Assembly: GCA_916048095.2 (NCBI GenBank)
Contig: OU696570.1
Span: forward strand, 3,061,018-3,125,017
Source of the DNA: Sacculina carcini
Lineage: Eukaryota; Arthropoda; Thecostraca; Sacculinidae
Direction of reading: 5' to 3'
Length of the DNA: 64,000 bases
The notes beneath the pieces were generated by a model. The model ran no database searches. It saw only the letters and a program-made list of their open reading frames with translations, and was not told where the DNA came from. The position numbers and the translations under genes were made by a program. Numbering within the stretch: position 1 is the stretch's first letter; every line of letters begins with the position of its first letter. Positions 1 to 61,767 of this stretch are shown in pieces.

Positions 1-1038
1 AGATGACACCCGAAGCTTTTCCTGACCCCGGCGCACATCTTCTCGATACTTCTCGACATTTTGATTTGAGCGAGGCTGCGGTTTTTGGTCGAAGACCTTG
101 GTCTGAGACGTGTTGCGATTAGCGCCCCCTTTTTGAGCTTCAAGCGCCCTCAATATTTTGCTGGAATTCTCCAAAATTGATTTTACTGAGGGGTATTCTG
201 TTCCAATCAGTAAACTGGACCTGGTTCTGTAATTTGATGGTAATCTATTCATTACAATATGGCTCAAAAGCCTCGAACCAAAACTGCCTTCTACGAGTGC
301 GTCCAAATTGTAATTTTGCAGCTCATAGACCGTTGACCGAATCTGATGTAACAGTCGATGCATTCCGGCAAAGTCCGTGTCTGACGGACAACTCTGCCCG
401 GTGAGTGTACACATGAGGCGCTCCACTACGGCATCTTCATCGAGATATTCGTCTTTCAAAAATGTCATAGCGGTGCCGTAATTGACATCAGTGTTTGACA
501 GATGCTTAACAACATCCAGAGCGTCTCCTCTCAAACAGCTCTTGAGGTATATGAGCTTCACCGTGTCAGAAAACTCCTCTTTTTCCCCGACAAGGTCATT
601 GAACAGTCGGATGAATTCCGAAAACTGCAACCTGTCTGAGGCGCCGTTGAATGATGGAAGTCGAATCTCCGGTGGTTTGACATGACTGACCTTAGCGGAT
701 TTTGCCGGTTGAATGGGCCGCATCGCCGCGGTTGACTGGCTCGACGCGCTGATGATAGCTGAAAGGCTTTGCGCGATCTGAGCGTGATAATCTGTCTGTG
801 ACTCGACATCCTGGTCGCACTCCTCTGGTGACGTCTCTTCTAACAAAAATGTGATTTTCAGATCCAAATTCTCAATGTCTGCAAGTTTAGCTCGGATAGA
901 TTTGACTCTGTCATGAACTACTGTCTCGTCAAGCTCCTCCTTTTCGAGTTTTTTGATCCACAAAGTCACTAACCTCTTTAGGGCACCACGTTGAACTTTC
1001 AGCTCTTTCATTGACTGAATCGTTTTGACATCATCCAT
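1..1038 (-). CDS. BEL/Pao retrotransposon gag, 3' end beyond the window
   Basis: An open minus-strand frame of exactly 346 codons runs from an ATG at 1038 to the window's left edge without a stop. It begins MDDVKTIQSMKELKVQRG, a charged helical N-terminus, and at about residue 127 enters a stretch reading KPPEIRLPSFNGASDRLQF and then EFIRLFND. This is the 'LPKFNGD...W..F...F' pattern of BEL/Pao gag (DUF1759), followed by the usual KLIYLKSCLRGDALDVV segment. The family packages retrotransposon RNA into virus-like particles. Protease, RT and integrase would lie further left, outside the window. The frame is intact as far as visible. No LTR or primer-binding site could be fixed on the right side. 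The family call rests on pattern recognition. Confidence 0.8.
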   Translation of the reverse strand, partial: MDDVKTIQSMKELKVQRGALKRLVTLWIKKLEKEELDETVVHDRVKSIRAKLADIENLDLKITFLLEETSPEECDQDVESQTDYHAQIAQSLSAIISASSQSTAAMRPIQPAKSAKVSHVKPPEIRLPSFNGASDRLQFSEFIRLFNDLVGEKEEFSDTVKLIYLKSCLRGDALDVVKHLSNTDVNYGTAMTFLKDEYLDEDAVVERLMCTLTGQSCPSDTDFAGMHRLLHQIRSTVYELQNYNLDALVEGSFGSRLLSHIVMNRLPSNYRTRSSLLIGTEYPSVKSILENSSKILRALEAQKGGANRNTSQTKVFDQKPQPRSNQNVEKYREDVRRGQEKLRVSS

Positions 1039-1685
1039 CCTGACTGAGATAAGGATGTGATTAGAGAGGACTACTAAGACCAATACAAAGTACAATTGGA
1101 AATGAGACACAGAAAATTAAATGCCAAAAAGCGACAACGACATACTTCAATTTAGCTTGTCACATGATGATAATTTACATTTTGACTTCAATAAACTGGA
1201 AAGTACAGAAAATAAATTCGCAAGATATTGTGATTTAATTTGGAGAAGCCCTTTTGTACTTTATTTATTTATACTTATTTATTTTATTTCCTTTTATACT
1301 TTATTGCGAATTTATTTTGTCGCAGGTGGCCGTTCGCGTTGTTGTACGTACAGCCCCGGTGGCAATGGATTTCTCCGCAAGTAATTGCTTGTCGCCGAAT
1401 ATTGAAAGAAGACTTGACGATAACTGAAATAGGCTTGAAATACGATGCCTCGAACGCTGAACCACGAATTATCCGTACCGAACCCCGAGTCACTAACCAC
1501 CCCGTGCTCTCTGTCTCCACTAATCCTCTTTCGCCGTTCCGGGTTGCCACGCCCCATTTTATCGCGGATTTGCCTTGAATCCTCCAAAATAGTACTGGGC
1601 TTTGAAATTATTTTCCCAATTAAATAGAATTGAAATTATTGAATTCAATTATGAATTACAATTGAAAATGATAAATATTTCTTTC
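1039..1685. other. unassigned spacer, possibly BEL/Pao 5' UTR or LTR
   Basis: About 650 bases between the BEL/Pao gag start and the viral NS3 duplicate. The stretch 1121-1320 is AT-rich and 1320-1580 is more GC-rich. Short frames occur on both strands but none has recognisable protein content. By position it should hold the 5' UTR or 5' LTR of the BEL/Pao element, but I could not find convincing TG...CA ends or a primer-binding site. Confidence 0.4.
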
Positions 1686-4574
1686 ACCAGTCACAATTTG
1701 AATCATGTTGATGATGTGTATGTGAGTGGAAAAGAACCGCCGAAAACCATTGTGAATTCGCTCAACAACGAAAAAGCTTGTCAGACTTGGGAGGAATGCA
1801 CTCACATTGGCAGATCTGGCACCTTTAACTCCAATGGTCAGTACATCAATGAGACGTTGTGGGTTGATGGCCAAAGGAGATGCGGTTGCAGATTAGGCCA
1901 ATTGTGGACACCGCGAGAAAACCGATTGCTGAACTCTGTGACTGCCGACAGGTTGGAAATGGAGCAGGAGATGATCAATAAGCTGTGCGAGCTGACAGGG
2001 GAAGAAGAAGTTAACAGTTTATTCAGGCATCTGTCTAGGAACCACAAAAGGTATTGGGGGGCTACAACGGAATTTTCTTTTGTTGACAGGATAAAAGCTT
2101 CTGTGGGAATGGACATTGATGAAGTAGTCAACGACTGTTCGCTGGGAAGAGATAAGGCAAAAATTGTTCACATTAGTTGAGGGTCCCCTTGCCCGTCCCA
2201 GGGTTTTGGTTTCATTTTTGATGGGGTGTTGCATACCAGTTGCCACTGCGTGTCATCTCCCAGGGGTTGCAGAAATTTGGTTATTCCAGTAAAAACCGGT
2301 AGCAAGTACGAAAAAAGAGTAGTTAAACCTGGGTACATAGACAAAGTCAATGATCTCGTCACTTATTGCGGCAAACCTCAAACCGAACTCCCTCAAGCAG
2401 GAGAACTTCACTACGTAGTACACCCACAATGTCAGGAAATTTTAGTTTTCAAAGCTCTGGAACTTGAAGAGGGGTCAGGCCAGACAAAATGTTCTTTCCA
2501 ACGGGTAGTGATAGTTAAAGGGGAAGACGGTATTCGTAGATTCAAGCCTATTAATAGATTTGGGTTTTATGGTTGGTCCGGGTTGCCCATTTGTAGATTT
2601 AGCGACGGTGCTCCCGTGGGGGTTTATGGTAATATGGATACCAATGTAGAGGGTAGCAAGGTGGTTAAAACTAGCTACGTTCCCGCCCCGACCGAAGTAG
2701 TTGATTGGGGAAGGGAAGTCCAGCGGTTGGTGGCTCTGCCCTTAAACAGGCCGATGTCAACAATCGTCAAGCCCACTGGGAGCGGAAAGTCCACTAGGTT
2801 TCCTTTAGAATTAGCCAAGTATCACCAGTCAATGGGATCCGAGGGTATAATTGTAGTCTTAAACCCGTTAAGACAGGTTCCCATAGAGCTCAAGAGGTAC
2901 ATGGATCAATTGATAGTTAGCGAGGAGCTTCAAAACATTCGCACAGAATTCATTGTAGGAGCTGGATTTTCGTATTGCGACTGGCGGACAATGCACACCC
3001 GGCCAGGCATCGATATTGTGTATGTTAGTTACGGCAAGTGGTTGAGCACAGAGTTTGGCAGGACCAAAGTTTTGGCCGTTGTTTACGACGAGGTACACAC
3101 TCGCCAGCCCGAAGTGGTGTGCGCACTTGATCTGCTCGAGGCAGGCAAGGACAAGCAAATTCCATGGTTTTGCGTTACCGCAACGCACCAGGGTTCGGCG
3201 GACAGGCAGATGGTGATGCATCCGCAAAGCGGCGACGACGCTGATCGTGATCCGACGAAAACCTTGATCTCAGACGGTCTTTACTTCGAGAACAATTTGC
3301 GAAGACCTGGCAGAAAGCACATCATCTTTGCTCACAAGAAGACGCTCTGTGAGCAGATCCGAGACAGATTGAGAGCCAGCACGAGATCTCAGCACATCTA
3401 CACTTACTATCGAATGCATCCTAAAGGAGCTGGAAACGTCAGAGAGTTCAACAACCACGATGACTCCATAATCATTTGCACCAACGCAGTAGAATCGGGC
3501 ATAACGTTAGTGGGAGCAACCGATTGTTGGGACAATCGGTTGCAAATCAAAGAAAAAGTTACACCGGATGGCAGTGTATCCCTGGTCGAGGAGAGTATTA
3601 ATGAATCGAGCATGAAGCAGCGGAAAGGCCGAGTGGGTAGAACCGGTTGCGAGGGCCATTACCATTACAATGAACGCAAGCAGGTAGTTCCAGATGACAA
3701 TAACGTTAGGGCGGACTTATCTTTGATTTACAGGGTTATTGCTTTTCACTATGTCCACGACTATCCTTATTTCAACGTGGCTGAGAAATACGAAGTAGAG
3801 CACCGCGATATTCTTGAGGCATGGAAACGTATTGACATTCCACTGACAACAGCGGCTCGTATCATCGCATACACGAAAATGAATTTGTACACTGTCGGGA
3901 TGTGCGCTGTCGACGGAGGAGATGGTAAGAGGTATTTTACCAAGAAGATGGTGCAACAGCTGTTCGCGACCTCTATCAACAGAGATGTGAAGAAAGCCGA
4001 CGTGCATGATGCGTTGAAAGGCCGTGGTACGAACCCGGTCTGGGAACATGACATTGACATTCCTGAAAACATCGCCATTGTCAATGCAATTGAATCAGAG
4101 ACTAACAGCTGTGTCGGTCTAACTGTGGCGACGCTTGGTACAGCGGCAATTGCTGCAGCACTAAGCCAGCTTGTGACGTTCTTTAACTCCAACAGTTGCG
4201 CTGAGCACGTATGGCAAATGGATGACCGAAACTTCGACCCGTTGCTTCGTTCCTGCTACACGACATTCCTCATGGATTATCGTGAAGCAGAAATGAGCCG
4301 GGCGGACGACGGTCAACCGGATTGCCGACTAACCAGCTTTTCACCGTTGATGAGTGTCCTTCACAACACAAAAATTCGCATCTGTGATGTCTGGATCCAG
4401 CCTGTGGTCGGCGTCCTCACCGTCGACACCATCAGGTTATGCGAAGTGACTTACCTGGTTTCCGGGTTTATGTCGATTACTAAATTCACTGGCATGGGCT
4501 CCGAGTTAAACTCGTTTGACGCCGTCAGCCACTCCCTCGGTTCGCTAAACTTTCGTGGCGTTTGTGGCGTGTGA
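1686..4574 (+). pseudogene. flavi-like NS3 protease-helicase, duplicate A, with a nonsense mutation
   Basis: Endogenous viral sequence encoding the same protease-helicase as 7991-10879. A C-to-G change at 2179 turns a serine codon into TGA at 2178-2180, just before the protease domain, so the frame is cut into 1686-2180 and 2181-4574. The serine-protease and helicase motifs downstream remain: GWSGLP, the GSGKST P-loop, DEVH, and QRKGRVGR. Further differences from copy B are mostly single amino-acid changes, for example Tyr for Ser after the helicase GAGFS motif and Thr for Asn after DEVH. The apparent start at 1602 lies in non-viral flank and is not a real start. Confidence 0.85.
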
Positions 4575-4631
4575 TTGAACGGACGTGTTTTTGGCGGCTC
4601 CTGTATTTAATTCTGATTATTGGTTGCGTTA
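1686..4631 (+). repeat. segmental duplicate A of the NS3-like region
   Basis: This 2946-bp block matches 7991-10936 base for base apart from roughly a dozen substitutions and no indel that I could see (constant offset 6305). Left of 1686 and right of 4631 the two copies have unrelated flanks: AT-rich spacer and (TA)n here, NS2-like coding sequence and a LINE 5' end there. Copy A lacks the upstream structural region, so it is most simply the derived duplicate. Confidence 0.95.
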
Positions 4632-4760
<129 letters not shown>

Positions 4761-4762
4761 GC

Positions 4763-5185
4763 GTAGTCCAAATATATAGCTTTCATGAGCATGGTATATT
4801 TCTGACCAAACTTGCCATTGTGCTTCTTGTAGGATTTCTTGCACACAGTTTTGCACATTTGGGTTGACTCGCCATTGGGCTCGAAATTGAACTTGTACGG
4901 CGAAGATCTTATTCGCTCACCGAAAACGATTTGCCCGAGATTTTCAACAGGTGGCGAGGCATCAGTACTATCGGCTTCACAAAAATCAAAGTGATCGTAT
5001 TCATACGGAACAATCGAATCAGTAGAAGTGAGCCTGTTGACAAAAACGGGCACCTCGGAGGGGCACCGTTTTGTTTGTTCCTTAACAGAGCAGTAATTCA
5101 CGGCAGCCAATCCAGGAAGATAGAAACAACGTGAAACACTCAAAAGAGAAAGACCGACCAAAGCTATAACTACCCTATTCGTCAT
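4763..5185 (-). pseudogene. TM9SF2: TM9SF2-like N-terminal exon, orphaned
   Basis: A minus-strand frame from the ATG at 5185 encodes a signal peptide (MTNRVVIALVGLSLLSVSRC) followed by the TM9SF2 luminal N-terminus: FYLPGLAAVNYC, then PVFVNRLTS, PYEYDHFDFC, ENLGQIVFGERI, SPYKFNF, and a Cys-rich segment ending ...KAIYLDY. Nonaspanins of this type are endosome/Golgi membrane proteins. An in-frame upstream ATG exists at 5215, but the 5185 start gives the typical signal peptide. Homology stops at 4763, where GC rather than GT follows (minus strand) and the (TA)n tract begins, so no convincing splice donor is present. The matching C-terminal exon in this window lies on the same strand but upstream in transcription order, so both cannot belong to one collinear gene. 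It may be a duplicated or rearranged first exon, or the first exon of a second tandem gene. Confidence 0.75.
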
Positions 5186-5280
5186 CCTAGAAGAGATATA
5201 CCATAACATACGCATTCGAACGCGCTACTATCCGGTACCAACGTACCACATTGGCCCAAAAGATCGGGTTCGTTGTCGTT

Positions 5281-7034
5281 ATGTCAGCACTATGCATCCG
5301 AAATTGCAACGCCGCGGCCCATTGGCGAATCGAGCCCATGGAAGACAATACCGACTGGGATTGCCGAAATGTCGCCATTCGCGGTGATTGTCACTCGACA
5401 TTTACTTTTGCTGCTGACTATCGATCTTTACTATCGCTTGATCCATCATCTGCGGACTGCACAAACTGGGCCACTCTGCGAGAGTGGGAGTGCAGTGTGT
5501 CTTGCGGTTGTGTCGAGGCGCCCTTCGATCGGACGTTCTGGGAAAAGGTCCGGACTTACGGTCAGCTATGCTCGAGAGAGGGAGGTTACGTCCACGCTCG
5601 GCTGGAACTTGGTACTCAAGAAGGCAAGTATAACGTGACGTGTTCGACAGTCGAAACCGCAAACAATAGGCACCGGCCGTTGTCTCGTCATCGGCGCTCT
5701 GTTGGCGATCGACCAATCGACCGGGTGGTTGAATGGGTCAAGAGCAAATTCGACGACGTGGTTAGTAACTCGTCTGTTGACATCTGCACGATGTTAAATA
5801 AGCTCAACCTGTCGCCTCGTTGGGTGGTGTTTTTTGTTGGGGCCATTTTTGTTGTACCTGTTGTTGGGCCTGCTAAAGGCACCGTAGTTATTCTTGTTTG
5901 CCTCATTGCCATGGGCCCTGTATGCGCCACTGCTTTGAATCCTATGGACGGCAGTGCTGCCCGGCAACCGCGATCAGTAGCAGAGGCAAGCATTGAATCG
6001 AACGACTGGTTTGAATGGGCAGGTGAGTTCAAGGAAGGAATGGCTTACATCATGGACAGACTGAGAATCATCGCTGCGATTGGTATTTCATTGATGTTGT
6101 TGGGCACGGTGGGACCTGTTCCGGCAGGGACTATGCTGATAGTGCTGCTAGCTATGAACGCTGCGGCCCCCACTGACGCCGTCGTAGTGAAACTCTCGCG
6201 ACATGCTGAAGTGGTAATCAACGGCAAGATCGTGCACTTTCTCCATATCCAACCTGTGTGGCGACTGGTCGAGGGTACCGAATACTGTTCCCACCTACAT
6301 CTGGGCACCATCAAGCGGTATCGTTGTAGTGGAGGCGGATCATGGGGAAGTTACCCACCACACACACCGGTTGTGGCAAACATCTCCGTTGGTCAAACGT
6401 GTCAAACAGCTCTTGTTAATAGCGACGGCAATCACGCGAGTTGTTACACTGGCTGGGGCCTGCTGGGCGGCAATCGAGGGTTTGACTGCGCATACGGAAC
6501 ATATATCCAACATTCGTGTGTGCTCAGCTGCGCTAAGTCCTGCGTTTTCCAGCGCAAACAGGTCAGTGCATACGAGATTGAAATCACGGAAGACGATGAA
6601 CGGCGCAGCCTGACGTTGTGCGGTGATCTACTAAAATGGGACGGCGCGACGGCTCGATTGATTTGTGATGAGAGTGTCCATATACAACTGGTATGCGACG
6701 GCAAGACACTGCATCCGACATCGCATTCTCAGATCCCGAATCCTCACTGGTTGAGGCGGGCTGAGGTGTGTGACCATGCGCGTCATATAGTTGAGTCATT
6801 GCGCGTAAACGTCTTCTGCGCTCGCGGGGATTTTTACCCTCGTTTCCAGTGCAAACATTCATTCTGGGGGGTCACCGAAACAAACAAATGGGCAGAATTT
6901 GTGCTGCAAGAGAGACAACCGATGCTTCGATTTATCGATTCAGCCAACATATCCCTCCCGAAAATGTGCACTCAGGTCACCATCAGGAGCATCACGAGGA
7001 AGTGCGAATTTGGACACGGCAATCGAATACTAGA
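5281..7034 (+). pseudogene. flavi-like prM/M-like and E-like glycoprotein region
   Basis: The frame is open from 5191 and has its first ATG at 5281. It stays open to 7098, but probably only sequence up to about 7034 is original. Order of parts: a Cys-rich prM-like ectodomain; a furin-type site RHRR at 5686-5697; a short stem and a paired membrane anchor at about 5815-5940; a second furin-type site RQPR at 5962-5973; another short stem and a second paired anchor at about 6061-6180; then a Cys-rich E-like ectodomain. The E-like part contains CYTGWGLLGG...CAYG from 6442, resembling the Gly/Cys-rich fusion loop of class II proteins. In flaviviruses prM chaperones E until furin cleavage. Here there are two M-like modules. 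The E region runs into a small repeat at 7023-7097 that breaks the frame. Confidence 0.65.
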
Positions 7035-7102
7035 TGTTAAAGTGTACGAAGTATGTATACTAGATGTTACTAGTAGATACTCGAATACTAGATGTTAAAG
7101 TG
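7023..7102 (+). repeat. short direct repeats disrupting the E-like frame
   Basis: A 22-bp sequence beginning tcgaatactagatgtta occurs at 7023-7044 and 7081-7102, spaced 58 bp. Its core atactagatgtta occurs a third time at 7057-7069. The spacing is not a multiple of three and stops occur inside, so this local duplication explains the break between the two parts of E. Confidence 0.85.
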
Positions 7103-7568
7103 TCGTAAGATGTACGAAGGCAGATGTTGGGCAAAGCTGAACCCAGATCTGTGGTGTTATATCCGTGGAACATCAATATGCCACATCGTTATGCTGCAAC
7201 CCGACTTGACTAGCATACTCTTGAATGATGAGGCATATGACGTAGACAGTTGTGACGAGCAATTTGATCATTTGGTGACCAGTGAACATAAGATTTATCA
7301 CAACAAAAATGACGGACACTCGACTTTCGACTTCAACAAACTACGGGAAGAACTTCTGAAATTTGCAGAAGACATGGTTTCAAGACTGAAGTTGCACAAA
7401 TGGGTCATTACTGCGGGCCTGGGGTTCATTGCTTTTGTTCTTGTTCAAGTGAATCCGATTGTGTCTGTGCTATTCATTGTTTTGGCAATGGCCCACTACG
7501 CATTTGCCTTTAGCGAAAGCGTGGTGGAGTCATTGGATTCTGATTTTTGGGCGATTTGTCCGTTATAA
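7103..7568 (+). pseudogene. flavi-like E C-terminal stem and membrane anchor
   Basis: After the repeat the coding sequence resumes in another frame (open 7092-7568). It shows a charged amphipathic stem (FNKLREELLKFAEDMVSRL) followed by two closely spaced hydrophobic segments at about 7393-7515, separated by a short polar turn (QVNP). This stem plus hairpin anchor is how flavivirus E proteins end. The frame closes at 7568, and coding sequence continues in a third frame that overlaps from 7547, indicating a small indel near 7545. Confidence 0.6.
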
Positions 7569-10500
7569 TATTGGTTGGTATAGTTTGTAAAAACGTGATC
7601 AATTTCCGGCCTGGAGAGTTTTTGGCTTTTCAAAATTTATATCTAAAATTGGTAGCAAATTTCTTTGGTTGGATTGTTCAATTTGTCTTGATGCATGTGT
7701 TCAAATCCAGTGCACCGTTGATGATGGTCATGGGGTTGGCTTTGTCGAAATTACTAGACGTTGTTTATTGCAAACTGACAGACATCGGGGCACAAGAAAG
7801 AGCGGAAAACTTGAGGATTTTTAATGTCATCGTTCTAACCGGCAACCATCTGGCTGTCGCTGCCGGTTGGGTGGCCTTTTACAAGTTGAACTTGTTCTTA
7901 GCGTGTATTTATTTTAGTGTTTTTTGGATAATGTTTGTGTTCAGGACGCACTGTGTTTGTGCGAGAGTTATTCAGTCTCTGCATGTGATAACCAGTCACA
8001 ATTTGAATCATGTTGATGATGTGTATGTGAGTGGAAAAGAACCGCCGAAAACCATTGTGAATTCGCTCAACAACGAAAAAGCTTGTCAGACTTGGGAGGA
8101 ATGCACTCACATTGGCAGATCTGGCACCTTTAACTCCAATGGTCAGTACATCAATGAGACGTTGTGGGTTGATGGCCAAAGGAGATGCGGTTGCAGATTA
8201 GGCCAATTGTGGACACCGCGAGAAAACCGATTGCTGAACTCTGTGACTGCCGACAGGTTGGAAATGGAGCAGGAGATGATCAATAAGCTGTGCGAGCTGA
8301 CAGGGGAAGAAGAAGTTAACAGTTTATTCAGGCATCTGTCTAGGAACCACAAAAGGTATTGGGGGGCTACAACGGAATTTTCTTTTGTTGACAGGATAAA
8401 AGCTTCTGTGGGAATGGACATTGATGAAGTAGTCAACGACTGTTCGCTGGGAAGAGATAAGGCAAAAATTGTTCACATTAGTTCAGGGTCCCCTTGCCCG
8501 TCCCAGGGTTTTGGTTTCATTTTTGATGGGGTGTTGCATACCAGTTGCCACTGCGTGTCATCTCCCAGGGGTTGCAGAAATTTGGTTATTCCAGTAAAAA
8601 CCGGTAGCAAGTACGAAAAAAGAGTAGTTAAACCTGGGTACATAGACAAAGTCAATGATCTCGTCACTTATTGCGGCAAACCTCAAACCGAACTCCCTCA
8701 AGCAGGAGAACTTCACTACGTAGTACACCCACAATGTCAGGAAATTTTAGTTTTCAAAGCTCTGGAACTTGAAGAGGGGTCAGGCCAGACAAAATGTTCT
8801 TTCCAACGGGTAGTGATAGTTAAAGGGGAAGACGGTATTCGTAGATTCAAGCCTATTAATAGATTTGGGTTTTATGGTTGGTCCGGGTTGCCCATTTGTA
8901 GATTTAGCGACGGTGCTCCCGTGGGGGTTTATGGTAATATGGATACCAATGTAGAGGGTAGCAAGGTGGTTAAAACTAGCTACGTTCCCGCCCCGACCGA
9001 AGTAGTTGATTGGGGAAGGGAAGTCCAGCGGTTGGTGGCTCTGCCCTTAAACAGGCCGATGTCAACAATCGTCAAGCCCACTGGGAGCGGAAAGTCCACT
9101 AGGTTTCCTTTAGAATTAGCCAAGTATCACCAGTCAATGGGATCCGAGGGTATAATTGTAGTCTTAAACCCGTTAAGACAAGTTCCCATAGAGCTCAAGA
9201 GGTACATGGATCAATTGATAGTTAGCGAGGAGCTTCAAAACATTCGCACAGAATTCATTGTAGGAGCTGGATTTTCGTCTTGCGACTGGCGGACAATGCA
9301 CACCCGGCCAGGCATCGATATTGTGTATGTTAGTTACGGCAAGTGGTTGAGCACAGAGTTTGGCAGGACCAAAGTTTTGGCCGTTGTTTACGACGAGGTA
9401 CACAATCGCCAGCCCGAAGTGGTGTGCGCGCTTGATCTGCTCGAGGCAGGCAAGGACAAGCAAATTCCATGGTTTTGCGTTACCGCAACGCACCAGGGTT
9501 CGGCGGACAGGCAGATGGTGATGCATCCGCAAAGCGGCGACGACGCTGATCGTGATCCGACGAAAACCTTGATCTCAGACGGTCTTTACTTCGAGAACAA
9601 TTTGCGAAGACCTGGCAGAAAGCACATCATCTTTGCTCACAAGAAGACGCTCTGTGAGCAGATCCGAGACAGATTGAGAGCCAGCACGAGATCTCAGCAC
9701 ATCTACACTTACTATCGAATGCATCCTAAAGGAGCTGGAAACGTCAGAGAGTTCAACAACCACGATGACTCCATAATCATTTGCACCAACGCAGTAGAAT
9801 CGGGCATAACGTTAGTGGGAGCAACCGATTGTTGGGACAATCGGTTGCAAATCAAAGAAAAAGTTACACCGGATGGCAGTGTATCCCTGGTCGATGAGAG
9901 TATTAATGAATCGAGCATGAAGCAGCGGAAAGGCCGAGTGGGTAGAACCGGTTGCGAGGGCCATTACCATTACAATGAACGCAAGCAGGTAGTTCCAGAT
10001 GACAATAACGTTAGGGCGGACTTATCTTTGATTTACAGGGTTATTGCTTTTCACTATGTCCACGACTATCCTTATTTCAACGTGTCTGAGAAATACGAAG
10101 TAGAGCACCGCGATATTCTTGAGGCATGGAAACGTATTGACATTCCAATGACAACAGCGGCTCGTATCATCGCATACACGAAAATGAATTTGTACACTGT
10201 CGGGATGTGCGCTGTCGACGGAGGAGATGGTAAGAGGTATTTTACCAAGAAGATGGTGCAACAGCTGTTCGCGACCTCTATCAACAGAGATGTGAAGAAA
10301 GCCGACGTGCATGATGCGTTGAAAGGCCGTGGTACGAACCCGGTCTGGGAACATGACATTGGCATTCCTGAAAACATCGCCATTGTCAATGCAATTGAAT
10401 CAGAGACTAACAGCTGTGTCGGTCTAACTGTGGCGACGCTTGGTACAGCGGCAACTGCTGCAGCACTAAGCCAGCTTGTGACGTTCTTTAACTCCAACAG

Positions 10501-10879
10501 TTGCGCTGAGCACGTATGGCAAATGGATGACCGAAACTTCGACCCGTTGCTTCGTTCCTGCTACACGACATTCCTCATGGATTATCGTGAAGCAGAAATG
10601 AGCCGGGCGGACGACGGTCAACCGGATTGCCGACTAACCAGCTTTTCACCGTTGATGAGTGTACTTCACAACACAAAAATTCGCATCTGTGATGTCTGGA
10701 TCCAGCCTGTGGTCGGCGTCCTCACCGTCGACACCATCAGGTTATGCGAAGTGACTTACCTGGTTTCCGGGTTTATGTCGATTACTAAATTCACTGGCAT
10801 GGGCTCCGAGTTAAACTCGTTTGACGCCGTCAGCCACTCCCTCGGTTCGCTAAACTTTCGTGGCGTTTGTGGCGTGTGA
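7547..10879 (+). CDS. flavi-like NS2-like membrane region plus NS3 serine protease/helicase
   Basis: A 1110-codon frame without a natural start: 7547 is a TTG just after the upstream frame break, so this is part of a polyprotein. Residues 1-145 form several membrane segments (NS2-like). About 300-480 is a trypsin-like protease: GVLHTSCHC supplies the likely catalytic His (codon 8549-8551) and GWSGLP the nucleophile Ser (8882-8884). About 490-880 is an SF2 helicase: P-loop PTGSGKST (9077-9100), DEVH (9392-9403), VTATHQGS, IIFAHKK, NAVESGITL, QRKGRVGR (9923-9946). The protease would cleave the viral polyprotein and the helicase unwind viral RNA. Motif V resembles pestiviruses more than mosquito flaviviruses. 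The last 200 or so residues match nothing I recognise. The motifs look complete, but with no start and no polymerase this is a non-replicating endogenous remnant. Confidence 0.85.
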   Translation: MGDLSVIILVGIVCKNVINFRPGEFLAFQNLYLKLVANFFGWIVQFVLMHVFKSSAPLMMVMGLALSKLLDVVYCKLTDIGAQERAENLRIFNVIVLTGNHLAVAAGWVAFYKLNLFLACIYFSVFWIMFVFRTHCVCARVIQSLHVITSHNLNHVDDVYVSGKEPPKTIVNSLNNEKACQTWEECTHIGRSGTFNSNGQYINETLWVDGQRRCGCRLGQLWTPRENRLLNSVTADRLEMEQEMINKLCELTGEEEVNSLFRHLSRNHKRYWGATTEFSFVDRIKASVGMDIDEVVNDCSLGRDKAKIVHISSGSPCPSQGFGFIFDGVLHTSCHCVSSPRGCRNLVIPVKTGSKYEKRVVKPGYIDKVNDLVTYCGKPQTELPQAGELHYVVHPQCQEILVFKALELEEGSGQTKCSFQRVVIVKGEDGIRRFKPINRFGFYGWSGLPICRFSDGAPVGVYGNMDTNVEGSKVVKTSYVPAPTEVVDWGREVQRLVALPLNRPMSTIVKPTGSGKSTRFPLELAKYHQSMGSEGIIVVLNPLRQVPIELKRYMDQLIVSEELQNIRTEFIVGAGFSSCDWRTMHTRPGIDIVYVSYGKWLSTEFGRTKVLAVVYDEVHNRQPEVVCALDLLEAGKDKQIPWFCVTATHQGSADRQMVMHPQSGDDADRDPTKTLISDGLYFENNLRRPGRKHIIFAHKKTLCEQIRDRLRASTRSQHIYTYYRMHPKGAGNVREFNNHDDSIIICTNAVESGITLVGATDCWDNRLQIKEKVTPDGSVSLVDESINESSMKQRKGRVGRTGCEGHYHYNERKQVVPDDNNVRADLSLIYRVIAFHYVHDYPYFNVSEKYEVEHRDILEAWKRIDIPMTTAARIIAYTKMNLYTVGMCAVDGGDGKRYFTKKMVQQLFATSINRDVKKADVHDALKGRGTNPVWEHDIGIPENIAIVNAIESETNSCVGLTVATLGTAATAAALSQLVTFFNSNSCAEHVWQMDDRNFDPLLRSCYTTFLMDYREAEMSRADDGQPDCRLTSFSPLMSVLHNTKIRICDVWIQPVVGVLTVDTIRLCEVTYLVSGFMSITKFTGMGSELNSFDAVSHSLGSLNFRGVCGV

Positions 10880-10936
10880 TTGAACGGACGTGTTTTTGGC
10901 GGCTCCTGTATTTAATTCTGATTATTGGTTGCGTTA
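7991..10936 (+). repeat. segmental duplicate B of the NS3-like region
   Basis: Partner of 1686-4631. It is continuous on the left with NS2-like viral sequence, so it is probably the parental copy. Position 8484 has C, giving a serine codon where copy A has a stop. The right edge falls at 10936, 57 bases after the stop codon, and is followed directly by a LINE 5' region. Confidence 0.95.
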
Positions 10937-10987
10937 TCGGTTATTTCGTGCGTGATCGTGTATAAGTTGTATAGTTAACTGCTGAAG

Positions 10988-11404
10988 ATGGAGGGAACAT
11001 CTAAAGCAACAAATGCGAATGACATTTTCCCTTGTAATGTATGTGGAGACCATTGCGATACGGGGATCAAATGCAACGAATATGATATGTGGAATCACTA
11101 CAAATGTACTGGATTGCGGCATTACCACATAATCACACTGAGAAAAACAAACAGGAAATTCATGTGTGAATCCTGCACCAAGCAGCGATTCAACGATTAC
11201 GATGTTATTTGGAGAGAAATTGACAGCGCCATCGAGAAAGAGAAGAACGAGGAGACAAGTGTAGATGGATTAAGTCAAACTCAAAACGTAGACACGGGAG
11301 AGAGATCTAATGGAGAAAATACTACATTGGATCCCTCCTTCATCGAAGTTGTGCGAAATAAGGGAAAAAACAACAAAAAAGTAGCATTGCAAATGGAAAC
11401 GTAA
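10988..11404 (+). pseudogene. LINE ORF1, PHD-type zinc finger N-terminal part
   Basis: It starts MEGTSKATNANDIFPCNVCG and has the Cys spacing of a PHD-type finger (CNVC, GIKCNE, W..HYKCTGL, FMCESC), the arrangement found at the N-terminus of many CR1/L2-clade ORF1 proteins, which bind the element's RNA. The frame ends in a stop at 11402-11404. The CCCH part continues in another frame whose open reading begins just before the stop. A one-base change in the A-rich stretch at about 11366-11383 would account for this. No sign of host function. Confidence 0.7.
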
Positions 11405-11436
11405 CAGATGTTCAATCTGAAGCCAAGCTGAACAAC

Positions 11437-12054
11437 TTGGAAATCGATTCAGCAGAATCAGTGGTCAAAGCTCCTCAGAAGAGTTCTGTACTCGGCATAT
11501 GCAGGTACTACAGAATACGTAATTGCAAACATGGAGTTCGAGGAATAGGATGTTCATACAGCCACCCTAAACCATGCCCCAAGTTTATGAAGCATGGATT
11601 TAACAACAAATTGGGATGTCGGCTGGGAAAGAAGTGTTCACATTTCCATCCTAACATGTGCAGAAACTCGTTGAAGTCACGAGCATGCTTAAATGAGAAC
11701 TGTAAATTCCCCAACGTAGGCCTACATCAGACAATAAACCAAAGACGAGGCCGGCTATGTTACGTAGAAGGAAGTTCAAGCGTCACACAAAAAATAGGTA
11801 CAATGGTTCACTATTCCTTCAAAAATAATGGAACGCGTCTTTTCAACTGCCTGCCACGTGAACTCAGAAATATAACGGCAGTGGCACCAGAATCCTTCAA
11901 ACGACAACTGGACAAGTGGCTGGCGAACATCGTTGATGAACCTCCCACACCAGGATATCTCAGCTCACATCACAACTACCTACCGGAGGTCGTCGGAGCA
12001 TTGAAGATATCACAGTCCGGTTCCAGCGGAAGTCCACTTCAGCTGCGTCTCTAG
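11437..12054 (+). pseudogene. LINE ORF1 CCCH fingers fused in frame to the ORF2 C-terminus
   Basis: Three CCCH-type zinc fingers: CRYYRIRNCKHG...CSYSH, CPKFMKHG...CSHFH, CRNSLKSRACLNENC. This is the arrangement typical of ORF1 in invertebrate CR1/L2-like LINEs. At about 11735 the sequence switches within the same frame to NQRRGRLCYVEG and then GTRLFNCLPRELRN, ESFKRQLDKWL and PPTPGY. That is the conserved end of the RT protein (ORF2) of these elements. The middle of the element has been lost so that ORF1 reads straight into the ORF2 tail. The frame is also open upstream of 11437, whose TTG is not a real start. Confidence 0.75.
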
Positions 12055-12118
12055 ACGACGAAATTCTCCAAAGTAACCAAAGTATACATAAAAACGGTCA
12101 ACCACGTAGCCAAATAAG

Positions 12119-12288
12119 GTTGTTGTTGTTGTTGTTGGTATAGCGCGTCGGCCGATTCCGACCACTTTGCGCTAAAATAGTCTCTAGAGCGTCACATCGT
12201 CGTTAAATGTCAATCGTCAAGATTTAAAAAAAGGATAAAATATGAGTGGAAATGACTAGGATATGAAAAGCAAATGATTTAAAGCACA
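12119..12288 (-). repeat. I-like LINE 3' UTR and (AAC)n tail
   Basis: On the minus strand this follows the RNase H stop and ends in six to seven AAC units. It also separates this element from the CR1/L2-like element on the left. I looked for a target-site duplication against the 5' end near 61767 and found none that is exact. Confidence 0.7.
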
Positions 12289-13314
12289 TCACAGTTCCTC
12301 GGCAAGACCGGTCACAAAAACGTATTCAACCAAATGTTTGGTCAAATGCGGATCACTACTGCTCAGCAAACTCGCCCTATTCCATGATATATTCTTATTG
12401 AGGCAGTATTCGCGCAATGGCTTACGACTCTCGGCATAGCGCATGCAATCTAAAAGTATATGGTCGATAGTTAAAACGGCATTACATCGAGAACAGTGAG
12501 GCGGTGGAGTACTTTCCATTAAAAACCCGTGAGTCAACCTTGAGTGACCTATACACAGTCTGGCCAGTAATACTTCTATTCTCCGTGGTAGAATAGCTGT
12601 CCCTGACCAGGGACCAACGTCATCGGTGACCTCGCCCAGTTTGTATTGATGCCGTTCTTGCTGCCAGCGGGTCTTGACAAATTGCCGAATATGCCTATCC
12701 ACGATCGCATCTGTAATCGACTTATTTAAAGGATAGTTTTGTATCGTGATCTCCTCGAGAGCGCATTTAGCCTCTGCATCCGCTAATTCGTTGCCAGTGA
12801 TTCCTCGGTGAGCTGGCACCCACATAAAAACACAGGATTTGCCGCTCGTCACAATTTGTCTATATAGGTCTAAAATTCGATGGTGAATAAAATCGAGTGA
12901 TGAATGATTGGATACATGTTGAAGTGCCGCCTTAGAATCTGATATGATAAAAAACTTTGGGTAATTTTGAAAGCTCGCAAACTCAACTGCTTTGTAGATG
13001 GCATACAGTTCCGCGTGAAATACAGTGGTGTAGGACGGCAGGCGATAGCGAAAAGTTTGCTGGTGCTCAGGTGGCACGTTTTTCACTATGACCGCGCATC
13101 CTACTCTGTCTTGCCACTTCGACCCGTCAGTGTAAACGTGTACCCAGTCCTTGTTTTGGTGATAAAACTCGGCGAACCTATCGCGAACTTCGAGGTCTGT
13201 GAGTACGCCCAATTTCTCCTGACATAGGCACGTTGTCACGGGAATGTGTGTGACCCATGGTGCAGGAGGACGGTGTACCTCAGTTTGATTTTCACTCGGT
13301 ATCGGAACGTTCAT
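12289..13314 (-). pseudogene. I-like LINE ORF2, RNase H domain
   Basis: The minus-strand frame holds a complete-looking RNase H: VHVYTDGSKW (first Asp), FHAELYAIYKAVEF (Glu), IISDSKAALQ (Asp), and VPAHRGITGNELADAEA (His and final Asp). A Cys/His segment follows (CSRCNAVLTIDHILLDC), the zinc-binding tail usual in I/Jockey-group ORF2 proteins. It degrades the RNA strand of RNA-DNA hybrids during retrotransposition. It is separated from the RT part by a stop and frame change at 13314-13318, so ORF2 is broken. The ATG at 13314 is probably fortuitous. Confidence 0.85.
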
Positions 13315-13315
13315 C

Positions 13316-14221
13316 TCAATCGATTTTGCTAAAGCTCGCCTCGAAAATGTGGATGCAAATACACGATGTCGCCGACTGCGCTGATGAGATGGAATTGGAT
13401 GAAAAATTTAAAATTCGACGGATAAAATGACCTTTTCTAATGAGAATTTTAAAAGCGTACCTCAGGATAGTTTTATTTCTCCTCACTTCAAGAGCGGGGA
13501 TACCAGTGTATGCACGTAAAGCTCCGACCGGTGATGATCTGAAAGCCCCAGAAATGATTCTGAGACCTTCATTCTGGACGGTCTCTAGCTGTTGTAAAAC
13601 TGACGGACTCGCCGCTGAGTAGACCTGCGCACCGTAGTCAATGACCGGCAAAACGAGGGTCTTATATATGCTCTGGAGCACCGACGTACTTCCGCCCGCG
13701 TACCGATTGCCCGCGATAACACGCATTATGTTCAGTCTCTTGGCGCATTGTGTCTTCAAATGGCTCACATGTTGCCGCATATTGAGTCTCTTATCAAGAA
13801 TAACTCCGAGGAATTTATGCGACTGTTGATAAGGAATTTCTTCGTCTGCCACTGTAAGTATGGGACCCTCTTGAAAACTATCAATCGCATACATTACGGC
13901 GGCAGACTTCCTTCCAGAAAACCTGAGACCATTTGTGCTCGCCCATTGTGTCAGACCGTTTAAAGCTTCTTGCATTACAGAAAACATTGCATACACCTCA
14001 CTACCTCGGATCCATATAGCACTGTCATCAGCATAAAGCGAATACGAGACTCCCGTCGGTGTGCGATCAAACATGGCATTAATCATTAAATTAAATAAAA
14101 GAGGAGATAAGCAGCTGCCCTGAGGCAGGCCCTTTGCTGACGCATGCCAGTCAGACAGGGCACTGCCCAGCCTCACCTGAAACCACCTGGTACCTGTGAT
14201 AAAATTTCTGATAAACATGGC
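13316..14221 (-). pseudogene. I-like LINE ORF2, second half of reverse transcriptase
   Basis: Minus-strand frame with RT motifs: MFIRNFITG, GLPQGSCLSPLLFNLMIN, catalytic YADD (codons 14024-14035), then the thumb/connection region, ending in a stop at 13316. The sequence upstream of about 14221 (first finger motifs and endonuclease) is missing. The frame runs on to 14296 only because it reads antisense through the array's first partial retroelement piece. The break point is the left edge of the glycoprotein array. Confidence 0.85.
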
Positions 14222-14812: not shown

Positions 14813-14895
14813 GTGTCAGTCTGCACACCCACTGAGACACACTGTGTTGGCTGCTTGGCAGTCACCGCGTACGAGAGCTGCCTCGGGGGGCACTG
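14813..14895 (+). repeat. 83-bp piece of I-like gag, probable target-site duplication
   Basis: From gtgtcagtctg to ggggggcactg. Read on the minus strand it encodes CPPRQLSYAVTAKQPTQC plus VSVGVQTD, the C-terminal part of the I-like gag. The same segment lies at the array's right edge (60683-60753), where it continues into native gag. It is repeated 129 bases before every glycoprotein ATG. Its left end always abuts the A-tract and its right end always abuts viral sequence, which is what a target-site duplication of the original insertion would do. Confidence 0.85.
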
Positions 14896-14941
14896 CACAG
14901 GCACAACACTTGATTCTAATCTTAGAATCTCAGCTCCGAAC

Positions 14942-17788
14942 ATGAGTGCGCTTTCTGGTTCCAAGATGTTAGTTGGCTGGGTAGTGAGCTTCATGCTTGT
15001 AATGACACTACCATGGAGCACTACCTCAATTGACTGCCAAGGCAACTCAATGTTGGCTAACTCCAATGGACACGGTTGTCCCTTTCCTAGAGATAGTATC
15101 ATGAGAAACTACGACTGCGATGGTTCCTGCAATGAGTTGCAGACCATGATCAAGAACGATAAAACAGGGAAGGTGCAGCTCATCAGACTGAAAAACTTCA
15201 CCAACATTGAGATGGATGACACTGACCAACAGATTACTGGATCCTGCTTTCTATTCAAGAGATCTGGAAAGTCACCGGAGATGGATTCTGACATTTGCTC
15301 CGTTAATGGAATCACGGTCAAGCAGTGTCAGGCTAAGACTAAGCAACAGATAGAGAGGTTGAACTTTATCGTGTCTGAAGAGGAAATCTTCTATGTGACA
15401 TCCATAACGATAAGGCCTTCCAAGACTGTTAATCTGAAGCAATGCTGCTACTGGTCAAGAAATTGCCATTGTGACACTAGAAGATGTTCATCCAGGGATA
15501 AGCTGTGCCATCAGAAGTTCTCACAAGACAGCCTTCTACCTCGCAGTGGCAATTGTACAATGAAGCGTAGGATGTGGTGCCCACTGCACGAAGTCATCGT
15601 GGAAGACAAGCTCATCTCAGCAGAATGTGTGGGGTCTCTGACAGCAGTGGTTAGCAGAGAGGAGGAGAAAATCACCAATTACGAAAATGTCTGTGACTTG
15701 ATTGGCACTACATGTTCGCCCCAGGGCATGCTGATAAGTAATCCTTTAAAGACAAACCTCCTAGTTGAGATGACAGATGTTGGCATGCATTACGATCTAC
15801 TCCTCACTCCTGGAGGAAACACAATTGACAGCAGTCTGATGGTGAGATCAGGGCTAAAGTCTTTTTCATTGAGAGTGGATATAAACGGGCAGTCATGTGA
15901 AAAGACATACACTTGTCCCAGACGGAAGATATGTGATATGATTTCCTGTTCTTTCTGTAGAGAAAAGATCTACAACTGGTCCTGTGCAACACAGATAGAG
16001 GTCCTAGTTGCCCTAATGACTGCTTGCATGAGCATCATTTGTGTGTGGATGCTTCTCATGATAACTTGTGCTTTAATCAAGCCTTTTAGGATCATCTACT
16101 CTATCCTGTTCAGATGCCTTAGGGGATCCATCTCCATCTTAATTAGGATGATGGTACGAAGAAGAGAATCTAAGAGAGTTGACACTTCTCCTCTACTGCC
16201 TAGGGTTGTGGACTCACCAAGAAATACTGTCAGGACATCAAAAGATTTTGGACGCATCAATCTCAGCAGCATGAAATGGTTGACTAAGATGGCTTTGATC
16301 TCAGCTGTGGGAGCAATGATAACAGTAGAAGAGTTGACTAGCTGCTCTGATGGGATATGCACAACTTCTTCAGATGCAAGAATTGCAGTATCTCCTGTGT
16401 CACAAACATCGAGATTCATGTTAAGAGACAAGAACAGTGGCAGATCCGTCCTGAGTTTGGAGGTGATAACAAAACACTTAAGCTATGCCTGCGACAAGAA
16501 ATTTTTGTATTACACAACCACTCCTAGTGTGAAGACAGAAGGACTCATCAGATGTGATAAGAATGGAAATGCTGAGTGCTACGATGGGCAATGCAACAAG
16601 GAGCTCTTCACCACTCCAGAAACAGGATTTGAATACAAGGATTGTGTATCTGCTGGGATGGGCTGGGGTCATGGATGTGGTTTGATTGAATCTGCTTGTG
16701 CATGGAGAAGAATGATAGTTACATCCAAACCAGGGTCTATCCCTATAAAAGTGGAGAAGTGCTCCAGCTGGAACCTTAGAGTTGATCTTGAGGTTAGGAT
16801 AACAGAAAACCAGACAATCAGAATGTCCAAGGTGCAATTGCATCCAGGGGTTCCACTAAAGCTAAACCACATACAGCTAACCCTAACAACAGCTATAACT
16901 CCACAAATTCCGGTCACCAATGATTGCATCTTGACTAAGGGGTTCGGTGACACGAAACAGCTAGCCATCGCACCATGTAATGATGTGGGTGAGTACTCAC
17001 CAGGTAGAGTTGGAGTCATACAGTGTCCAAATATATACGCTCTCAGTAATCTAGCTGAATGTGAGGTTTCTCAGTCCGCAATGAAGTTGAGTGGAACTAA
17101 ATATGTGAGAGGTGAAATAGATGGTGTGGATTTGCACGAAATAATGGACAAAAGATCCACTCCATTCAAAATTGGATCCACTTTTATCAGATCAATAAGG
17201 GGATCTCCAGTTATTACCATGAAACAAAATACATTAATGGAGATTAGTATTGTGACAAACAAAGCTAGACTGTTAGTTAGCCCTTCTACTGCTACCTGCT
17301 CCGTGATGTCAGTTTCCATGGATGGCTGTTCTCAGTGTAGCCCTGGGGCTGACATAAGCATGGCCATTGTTACTTCAGACTCTGGAGAAGCAATATTGGA
17401 ATGTCCAGGATTTCCTCCTGCAGTAACTTCGTTTAAGAGTGGCAAGGTTGATGTGGTTTTCACAATGCACTTCTCTGAGATGAAGGTTGGCTTAAACTGT
17501 AAACTCTTGTGTCCAATGAGCTCAACTCCAGTTTATATTGAGGGAGTTCTCATTCAAGAAGTTATGCAGAGATCCCAGCTCGTAGAAACATCCATGACAG
17601 ATAGCAAAAGACCAGGAGGTATAGGATGGTTCTCAACAGACTTCATCTCTACAATGTTCAGATCAATGATCCCAAGCTGGGTGCTCTGGATTATGTGCGC
17701 CCTTGTTGGAGTGTCTCTGCTTAAGGTGGTTGCTCCGATAGTGCTGACAATGTGGGGGCTATGGATACAAGGAAAGAAGGAGCACTAG
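14942..17788 (+). CDS. phenuivirus-like Gn/Gc glycoprotein precursor, copy 1
   Basis: A 948-residue precursor. Cleavage by signal peptidase should give Gn and Gc, the envelope proteins that bunyaviruses use for attachment and membrane fusion. Seen: N-terminal signal segment (VGWVVSFMLVMTLPW); Cys-rich Gn ectodomain; membrane span at about 354-379; cytoplasmic tail with basic and Pro-rich stretches; second hydrophobic segment at about 447-465 as Gc signal; Cys-rich Gc with a Gly/Cys-rich fusion-loop-like segment GMGWGHGCGL at 572-581; C-terminal span at about 912-941; tail IQGKKEH. The length matches simple phenuivirus M proteins without NSm. The ATG at 14942 is chosen because the signal segment follows; the frame is open further upstream to 14783, but that part is A-tract and antisense gag. 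Copy-specific: Met for Val in GNSMLAN. No stop or frameshift. Confidence 0.85.
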   Translation: MSALSGSKMLVGWVVSFMLVMTLPWSTTSIDCQGNSMLANSNGHGCPFPRDSIMRNYDCDGSCNELQTMIKNDKTGKVQLIRLKNFTNIEMDDTDQQITGSCFLFKRSGKSPEMDSDICSVNGITVKQCQAKTKQQIERLNFIVSEEEIFYVTSITIRPSKTVNLKQCCYWSRNCHCDTRRCSSRDKLCHQKFSQDSLLPRSGNCTMKRRMWCPLHEVIVEDKLISAECVGSLTAVVSREEEKITNYENVCDLIGTTCSPQGMLISNPLKTNLLVEMTDVGMHYDLLLTPGGNTIDSSLMVRSGLKSFSLRVDINGQSCEKTYTCPRRKICDMISCSFCREKIYNWSCATQIEVLVALMTACMSIICVWMLLMITCALIKPFRIIYSILFRCLRGSISILIRMMVRRRESKRVDTSPLLPRVVDSPRNTVRTSKDFGRINLSSMKWLTKMALISAVGAMITVEELTSCSDGICTTSSDARIAVSPVSQTSRFMLRDKNSGRSVLSLEVITKHLSYACDKKFLYYTTTPSVKTEGLIRCDKNGNAECYDGQCNKELFTTPETGFEYKDCVSAGMGWGHGCGLIESACAWRRMIVTSKPGSIPIKVEKCSSWNLRVDLEVRITENQTIRMSKVQLHPGVPLKLNHIQLTLTTAITPQIPVTNDCILTKGFGDTKQLAIAPCNDVGEYSPGRVGVIQCPNIYALSNLAECEVSQSAMKLSGTKYVRGEIDGVDLHEIMDKRSTPFKIGSTFIRSIRGSPVITMKQNTLMEISIVTNKARLLVSPSTATCSVMSVSMDGCSQCSPGADISMAIVTSDSGEAILECPGFPPAVTSFKSGKVDVVFTMHFSEMKVGLNCKLLCPMSSTPVYIEGVLIQEVMQRSQLVETSMTDSKRPGGIGWFSTDFISTMFRSMIPSWVLWIMCALVGVSLLKVVAPIVLTMWGLWIQGKKEH

Positions 17789-18513
17789 TCAGGACTTTGA
17801 CAAAATGCAAAGACTTTAGTTGGTTATACATTAAACATCCAAATGTGGCTGGGTCTTTGTGTAGTGGAGCATGGCTGCACGCGCTTCCGGTGGCCAGCCT
17901 GGGCCTTCTTCTGCCAGACGATGTGGTGCGTGTAGGCGTGGCGTTGCGTATCGGCTCGCCCGTCCAACAACCCCACAGATGCCGATGCGGTGCCGTGTCG
18001 GACAAATGGGGGCATCATGCGTTGTCATGTCAACAAAGCGCGGGACGAATTCCAAGGCACACGGTGCTCAACGACACTGTGTATCGCGGTTTGGCGGCAG
18101 CTGGGATCGGCGCGGTGCTGGAACCACGAGGCCTGGACAGAGGAGACGGACGCCGCCCGGACGGGATAACCGTATACCCTTTCACGAGCGGCAAAAGCCT
18201 TGTCTGGGACGCCACCTGCTCAAACACGTTCAGCACCACACACACGCTGAACTGCGCCATCAACGCCGGCGCAGCAGCCCTAGCAGTAGAACAACGCAAG
18301 CGCCAGCGATACGCATCGCTGACGGACCGGTACCACTTCGTGCCAGTAGCGGTGGAGACCAGCGGTGCTCTGGGACCAGCATGCGAGACACTGTGCAAGC
18401 ACATCGGTCGAAAGATCACAGAGCGCACAGGCGAGAAGCGTGAAACTGCCTGGCTAATTCAGCGAGTTAGTCTGGCCATCATGCGCGGCAACGCTGCCTG
18501 TGTCTTGTTGTGA
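17752..18513 (+). CDS. retroelement C-terminal domain ORF, copy 1 (chimeric start)
   Basis: A 253-codon frame whose ATG lies inside the end of the glycoprotein ORF in another frame (37-base overlap). Only codons from 17863 on are retroelement: SGAWLHALPVASLGLLLPDD, HRCRCG...DKWGHHALSC (Cys/His motif), GRIPRHTALND, LEPRGLDRGDGRRPDG, LVWDATCSNT, VAVETSGALGP, LIQRVSLAIMRGNAA. I know this block as the part downstream of reverse transcriptase in many invertebrate retroelement proteins. The RH..N / RPDG / WD.T pattern resembles a PD-(D/E)XK-like nuclease fold, but that is a guess. RT itself is absent. GC-rich, unlike the viral part. Copy-specific: Val for Met in GAVSDK, Val in HTVLND, Val in AVEQRK. 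Whether the chimeric ATG is used is unknown. Confidence 0.7.
   Translation: MGAMDTRKEGALVRTLTKCKDFSWLYIKHPNVAGSLCSGAWLHALPVASLGLLLPDDVVRVGVALRIGSPVQQPHRCRCGAVSDKWGHHALSCQQSAGRIPRHTVLNDTVYRGLAAAGIGAVLEPRGLDRGDGRRPDGITVYPFTSGKSLVWDATCSNTFSTTHTLNCAINAGAAALAVEQRKRQRYASLTDRYHFVPVAVETSGALGPACETLCKHIGRKITERTGEKRETAWLIQRVSLAIMRGNAACVLL
17853..17862 (+). other. phenuivirus-type segment terminus fused to retroelement
   Basis: gtctttgtgt, complement of the family-wide ACACAAAGAC end. The very next base (17863) starts the retroelement reading AGT GGA GCA TGG, Ser-Gly-Ala-Trp. The joint is identical in all twelve complete units, 74 bases after each glycoprotein stop. Confidence 0.85.
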
Positions 18514-18700
18514 TAGTTTTTACGTAATATGAACAATACATATGCACACAAAAAAAGAAAAGAAAAAAAAAGTGTCAGTCTGCACACCCACTGAGACACA
18601 CTGTGTTGGCTGCTTGGCAGTCACCGCGTACGAGAGCTGCCTCGGGGGGCACTGCACAGGCACAACACTTGATTCTAATCTTAGAATCTCAGCTCCGAAC

Positions 18701-61737: not shown

Positions 61738-61767
61738 GGACCGACCATGCGGGTCACCGCTCCCTCA
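60683..61767 (-). mobile_element. I-like LINE, 5' half
   Basis: It comprises gag plus a short leader (61738-61767, minus-strand GAGGGAGCGGTGACCCGC). To its right is A-rich non-element sequence. With the 3' half at 12119-14221 it brackets the array. The order and strand fit one interrupted element that also lost endonuclease and half the RT. Confidence 0.75.

Follow-up and report, generated by a model that had tools for sequence, protein, structure and literature searches.

A tails and target duplications are the marks from which the germ-line entry of RNA viruses that make no DNA has mostly been deduced. Template jumping by the R2 reverse transcriptase was reportedly observed in vitro by Bibillo and Eickbush in 2004. 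According to the accessible part of PMC8857657, this enzyme jumps in vitro between the ends of templates in a manner that depends on nontemplated addition. U6/LINE-1 and other LINE-1 chimeras are described in the available text of PMC13174262 as a full-length foreign RNA, there of cellular origin, placed 5' of a 5'-truncated LINE (L1) in the same sense and followed by an A tail, all made in one event; the words virus and viral are absent from the main text of that source as far as it was available. Non-retroviral endogenous viral elements (EVEs) made by LINEs, among them bornavirus-like ones, are presented in the available parts of PMC2987831 and PMC8554740 as mammalian copies of viral mRNAs that have an A tail of their own and are accompanied by target duplications. 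For insect EVEs, A tails and target duplications were not apparent in the 2010 survey, in its accessible portion (PMC2987831). Atlas virus, according to the available part of PMC9094657, is a belpaovirus with phlebovirus-like Gn/Gc, whose envelope gene lies inside a gag-pol retroelement.

Here, we analyzed a stretch of 64,000 nucleotides of Sacculina carcini (the window, C1:3061018-3125017 of a 264-Mb assembly), in which a viral genome segment is joined to a LINE. The insert is a LINE-made EVE that works like the LINE-1 chimeras, and in it a complete viral segment and the LINE sequence itself are combined. It differs from those chimeras as presented in PMC13174262 in its partner, a complete viral segment instead of a cellular RNA, and in its LINE, which is R2-like. 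With the LINE-made EVEs of PMC2987831 and PMC8554740, as far as described in the portions available, it shares that RNA-virus sequence was put in the germ line by a retroelement; in contrast, the LINE sequence itself is attached here. It resembles R2 jumping in reverse transcriptase class, direction, and use of the acceptor's 3' end, whereas the jumps in the accessible part of PMC8857657 were made in vitro on added RNAs and the present product lies in the germ line with a viral acceptor. Atlas virus supplies the nearest solved Gc (PMC9094657, in its available part), but the gene studied here belongs to a free segment with its own termini. No virus-LINE fusion or endogenous bunyavirus array of this kind was found in the literature, of which our coverage was partial. 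The features of the window are as follows.

12289-14221, minus strand: left flank, part of the target LINE, which we take to be Jockey-like, interrupted where it meets the array; matches to RVT_1 (E 5.8e-17) and RNase_H (E 2e-14)
14222-60753, plus strand: tandem array consisting of a truncated LINE piece, 12 complete units, and 1 partial unit
14896-17862, plus strand: viral part of the first complete unit, without roughly the initial 103 nt of the segment
14942-17788, plus strand: Gn/Gc glycoprotein frame, 948 aa from the first ATG, as it stands
17789-17862, plus strand: viral 3' UTR, 74 nt, read directly
17846-17862, plus strand: terminal arm at the 3' end of the viral segment, TGGCTGGGTCTTTGTGT in plus sense, recognized by pairing with the 5' end at L010:2752
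17863-18549, plus strand: 3' part of the R2-like LINE, 5'-truncated at the joint, 687 nt; outside copies match from here or 2 bases on
18550-18571, plus strand: A-rich tail of the LINE, read directly
18572-18654, plus strand: 83 bp of the target LINE, present in each repeat unit, with matches in other genomic copies and adjoining the right flank
60754-61760, minus strand: right flank, a further part of the target LINE, end approximate; its first 347 bp match the flank of the sister array

The preliminary description of this DNA had claimed that a viral terminus meets a retroelement base-exactly, with retroelement coding sequence beginning at the next base. This joint was confirmed at base resolution: a phenuivirus-type M segment has its final base at 17862, and the 3' part of an R2-like LINE starts at 17863. 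Among the matches listed (18 of 18, with 40 of 277 candidates scored), LINE copies outside the arrays began to match at 17863 in 17 cases and at 17865 in one, corresponding to bases 264 and 266 of the query, base 264 being 17863. The LINE sequence common to the copies extended upstream of the breakpoint in all six genomic copies inspected, and an open frame spanned the breakpoint in L018, L053, and L021. A genome search with the 83 bases up to the joint (17780-17862), for which 22 of 22 candidates were scored, gave 22 matches, every one of them within the two arrays; therefore, no LINE copy found holds viral bases. A retroelement copy holding the 74 pre-joint bases, which the preliminary description had named as what would show them not to be viral, was likewise not found among these matches. 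All 22 complete viral parts end at the joint in GGGTCTTTGTGT, and the LINE follows directly with 0 bases between.

The LINE was characterized from its other copies. Its reverse transcriptase matched RVT_1, and the nearest solved chains were R2 proteins (E 5e-12, versus 1e-4 for LINE-1), the placement on which the term R2-like is based. Copies of the LINE are dispersed over many contigs and not confined to 28S rDNA, the insertion site of R2 proper. In L021, the LINE frame stays open for 1106 aa between stops; a C-terminal zinc knuckle and a PD..D pattern, together a possible restriction-like endonuclease region, were seen in it by eye, the Pfam match being to RVT_1 only. The 5' ends in 21 loci fell at many points between -81 and about -2950 from the breakpoint, the latter value being the limit of the query; the value for L052 leans partly on a weak 64% match, and another measurement gave -779. 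The A-rich tails vary in length among the other copies. By eye, the LINE often stood in or beside AC-rich microsatellites (L011-L017, L049-L053, and L068-L077 among others), a sequence type that it may favour for insertion. Whether this LINE captures RNA repeatedly was also considered. An Rfam search of 20 loci gave 3 matches, none within about 2 kb of a LINE 5' end; recurrent capture of RNA of known families was thus rejected for these loci, and jumping has not been established as a habit of this LINE.

The other end of the viral segment was located outside the window. The viral 3' UTR ends in gtctttgtgt, and the segment end at 17862 reads CTTTGTGT. The original 5' end, ACACAGAGACCAGCCACC, was found at L010:2752, within the sister array's first copy, and has a single place in the genome; the segment in this founding copy is complete and 3,068 nt long. 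When the first 17 bases of the founding 5' end were paired against the end at 17862, the score was 16.5 out of 17, with a 1-nt bulge. On both strands of window 1-14200, the 28,364 positions used as controls reached 13.0 at best, and the second-best end inside the viral part scored 14. When both ends were joined by a linker, the fold had a z of -5.6, and 0 of 200 shuffles were as good. The unpaired G is one among three G at -10 to -12, so that the possible placements of the bulge are equivalent; the folding program chose base 11 or 12 for it. In the available part of PMC7156889, bandaviruses, UUKV, and RVFV are reported to have M and L panhandles with one base left unpaired at position 10 (or 11), and the complementary termini found here, with an unpaired base at 10 or 11, agree with that published signature of Phenuiviridae M segments. 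Hence, 17862 is the true viral segment terminus, as the preliminary description had held, and the same 5' end was seen at an independent locus. Since the founding 5' end pairs with 17862, a complete segment is joined end to end to a 5'-truncated LINE.

The coding content of the segment was consistent with this assignment. Pieces of the frame matched Phlebovirus_G2 (E 2.8e-27), with Phlebovirus_G1 slightly below the cut-off, and the frame thus encodes a Gn/Gc polyprotein as in Phenuiviridae M segments. The Gc piece, compared with solved structures, matched best to 7a4a (E 5.2e-18), followed by phenuivirus Gc chains (E 4e-10 and weaker); 7a4a is the Gc of Atlas virus, from a hookworm belpaovirus (PMC9094657, in its available part). 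No exogenous relative of the viral piece was found among viral contigs, and a protein search, which sees only proteins near the length of the piece, yielded 939 candidates with 0 at E <= 0.001. A diverged M-segment relative, comprising the 5' half only, was identified on another contig (C25, L048:4244-5928); it shows 67% DNA identity to the array segment over a 448-bp stretch, and Phlebovirus_G1 was above the cut-off there. This relative starts at L048:4244 with the same 22 bases as the founding 5' end, plus one shared base before them, and the flank preceding it is otherwise unrelated to that of the array. A piece of an orthomyxovirus-like PB1 (Flu_PB1, E 1.4e-25) was observed close to it (L048:6786-7808). 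This locus was considered as a second virus-LINE chimera and rejected: the M-segment half, the PB1 piece, and LINE-like coding debris are separated by other DNA, so there is no clean joint.

The insertion site was reconstructed from copies of the target LINE. The target runs uninterrupted through ...GCAGCTGCGGGATG/GTGTCAGTC in 20 of the 21 copies inspected, small variants included, the exception being L041; these are empty paralogous sites within this one genome. In the array, the A tail abuts GTGTCAGTC, and on the opposite side the target stops at GCAGCTG. The 83 bp that follow each A-rich tail (14813-14895 and equivalents) resemble a viral 5' UTR but match copies of the target LINE and are target DNA. 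Between the target and the viral 5' terminus lie 44 nt of filler, and about 7 target bases are missing. The 24-nt core of the filler was found in the genome only at its own place (up to 3 mismatches), and a local source was not detected, the longest local match being 11 nt, a length reached by 47 of 300 shuffles. A cap-snatched leader is possible at the end of the filler. No clean target-site duplication, which would be expected of a LINE chimera, was found around the whole insert. According to the available part of PMC2881922, target-primed insertion can also result in loss of bases at the target site; the absent duplication therefore lowers, without excluding, membership among the LINE chimeras.

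Beyond the content of the preliminary description, the joint was observed to be repeated in a tandem array, and a sister array lies downstream (C1:3137872-3175455, L010-L014). The period is approximately 3759 bp, and the arrays hold 22 complete viral parts (12 in the first, 10 in the sister) plus one partial. In the repeat unit, base 83 of the target DNA behind the A tail is joined to the viral 5' UTR near nt 104, and the segment's initial 103 nt or so are absent from the viral copies in the window. This joint of target DNA to viral 5' UTR indicates that amplification took place after insertion and at the DNA level. The right flanks of the two arrays are 100% identical over the first 347 bp, which also match other genomic copies, and left-flank sequence is shared, including a flavivirus-like element. 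These common flanks indicate that a larger duplication produced the two arrays. Compared with copy 1, the other 19 copies of equal length show 2 to 8 differences in 2,967 bases. Every complete copy of the first array (12 of 12) has an intact Gn/Gc frame, 948 aa long in 11 of them and 947 aa in the remaining one; in the sister array, 3 of 10 frames are intact, and the other 7 stop after 250, 322, or 324 aa. Among the 20 copies of equal length (2 of the 22 were left out for length), the changes were 20 nonsynonymous, stops included, 10 synonymous, and 1 at a UTR site, with 3.57:1 expected from counting possible changes. Selection on the array was considered and not adopted: these counts are too weak for constraint, and a young array explains the intact frames equally. 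It is unlikely that an R2-type reverse transcriptase in a germ-line cell acquired a full-length bunyavirus antigenome end to end and that the host, having amplified Gn/Gc to 22 complete copies, retains the array with intact frames for a function, e.g., interference with related viruses based on protein or small RNA.

Several other elements were observed nearby. A second non-retroviral EVE, a piece of a flavivirus-like polyprotein, lies at 7544-10879 and about 1686-4574, with an open frame of 1111 aa, and encodes a pestivirus-type NS3 peptidase (E 1.8e-13) and a helicase. It occupies four genomic places (C1:3050410, 3063712, 3070017, and 3130265), the two in the window being 6305 bp apart. An (AT)n tract of about 66 copies (4632-4760) directly follows one of these copies. 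Two overlapping frames (10979-12054), located after the flavivirus-like element and before the target LINE, show Cys/His patterns that by eye resemble zinc fingers. In addition, TTAGG repeats, which point to an arthropod, were present at two contig starts (L057 and L058) among the 14 contig ends examined; COX1 of the host was looked for and not found.

We propose, with a probability of roughly 65%, that the insert arose by target-primed reverse transcription on LINE RNA followed by a jump onto the 3' end of a viral RNA that was full-length and of plus sense. An R2-type LINE would have nicked the Jockey-like LINE, and reverse transcription of the R2-type LINE's own RNA would have begun in the A-rich tail. 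The enzyme would have copied 687 nt before leaving this template, either because a broken LINE RNA had its 5' end there or because it stalled. Its next template would have been a complete phenuivirus M-segment RNA of plus sense, probably the antigenome, which it entered by a jump at the 3' terminal base and copied as far as the 5' terminal base. The other side would then have been sealed with the loss of about 7 target bases and the gain of the 44 nt of filler. A later tandem duplication at the DNA level, with a unit that includes the 83 bp of target DNA, would have multiplied the insert, and a larger duplication would have given the two arrays. The anatomy of the insert fits this scheme and that of LINE chimeras: the partner RNA stands 5' of the LINE in the same sense and is used from its 3' terminal base, and the LINE is 5'-truncated with a complete 3' end and an A-rich tail, which is the order of acceptor RNA, LINE 3' part, and poly(A) that had been described beforehand. 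The template switch put forward in the preliminary description is thus supported with respect to the joint; that the reverse transcriptase jumped, rather than copying RNAs ligated earlier, we infer from the use of the acceptor from its terminal base together with an R2-like enzyme. The absence of a clean target-site duplication, the 44-nt filler, and the lack of other captured RNA in the loci searched argue against a jump, as do the statements in the accessible part of PMC8857657 that the R2 enzyme mostly adds nontemplated A, which do not favour jumping, and that jumping is perhaps unneeded physiologically.

Ligation of the viral RNA to a broken LINE RNA, e.g., by RtcB, with the chimera then reverse-transcribed as one template, would yield the same blunt, same-sense joint. 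RtcB needs a 2',3'-cyclic phosphate or 3'-phosphate end, while a viral 3' end made by a polymerase should be 3'-OH, and the exact use of the terminal base fits a jump at least equally; we therefore regard prior ligation as unlikely. It is nevertheless one of two accounts of the U6/LINE-1 chimeras in the available text of PMC13174262, and LINE-1 chimeras of human mobility assays are attributed to ligated RNA in the accessible part of PMC8857657. Somewhat less improbable is a capped run-off mRNA as the template behind this same joint, since the 3' UTR comprises just 74 nt and the 44 nt of non-viral sequence before the 5' terminus could include a cap-snatched leader. Such leaders are usually reported to be shorter than 44 nt, and the core of the filler has no other place in the genome. 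A full-length antigenome had been named as the template in the preliminary description; the complete founding 5' terminus strengthens the full-length, plus-sense part of that claim, and from the complete 5' and 3' viral ends we infer that the antigenome is a more probable template than a run-off mRNA with a host leader.

Two further readings were judged far less probable. EVEs and LINEs both occur in the neighbourhood, and separate insertions of virus and LINE might have abutted by chance or been brought together by a later deletion. However, no target DNA separates the two parts, the joint falls on the viral terminal base, and a single A-rich tail and a single target site serve both, which makes this course very unlikely. 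The match of the Gc piece to 7a4a (E 5.2e-18; PMC9094657, in its available part) could instead mean that the gene is the envelope of an Atlas-type BEL/Pao retroelement and not a virus segment. Against this, the repeat unit consists fully of the 83 bp of target, the viral part, the LINE, and the A tail; neither the linked gag-pol nor the LTRs that accompany a BEL/Pao envelope were found in it. The segment also has its own terminal panhandle, and its 5' terminus recurs at an independent locus. An envelope origin is hence scarcely credible, and target-primed reverse transcription with a jump to the viral RNA remains the preferred reading.

In this locus, both ends of the segment and part of the carrier retroelement are kept in one insert. 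Because these are preserved together, the mechanism, the template, and the class of the enzyme become testable. The insert records how a retroelement can bring an entire RNA-virus segment into inherited DNA.
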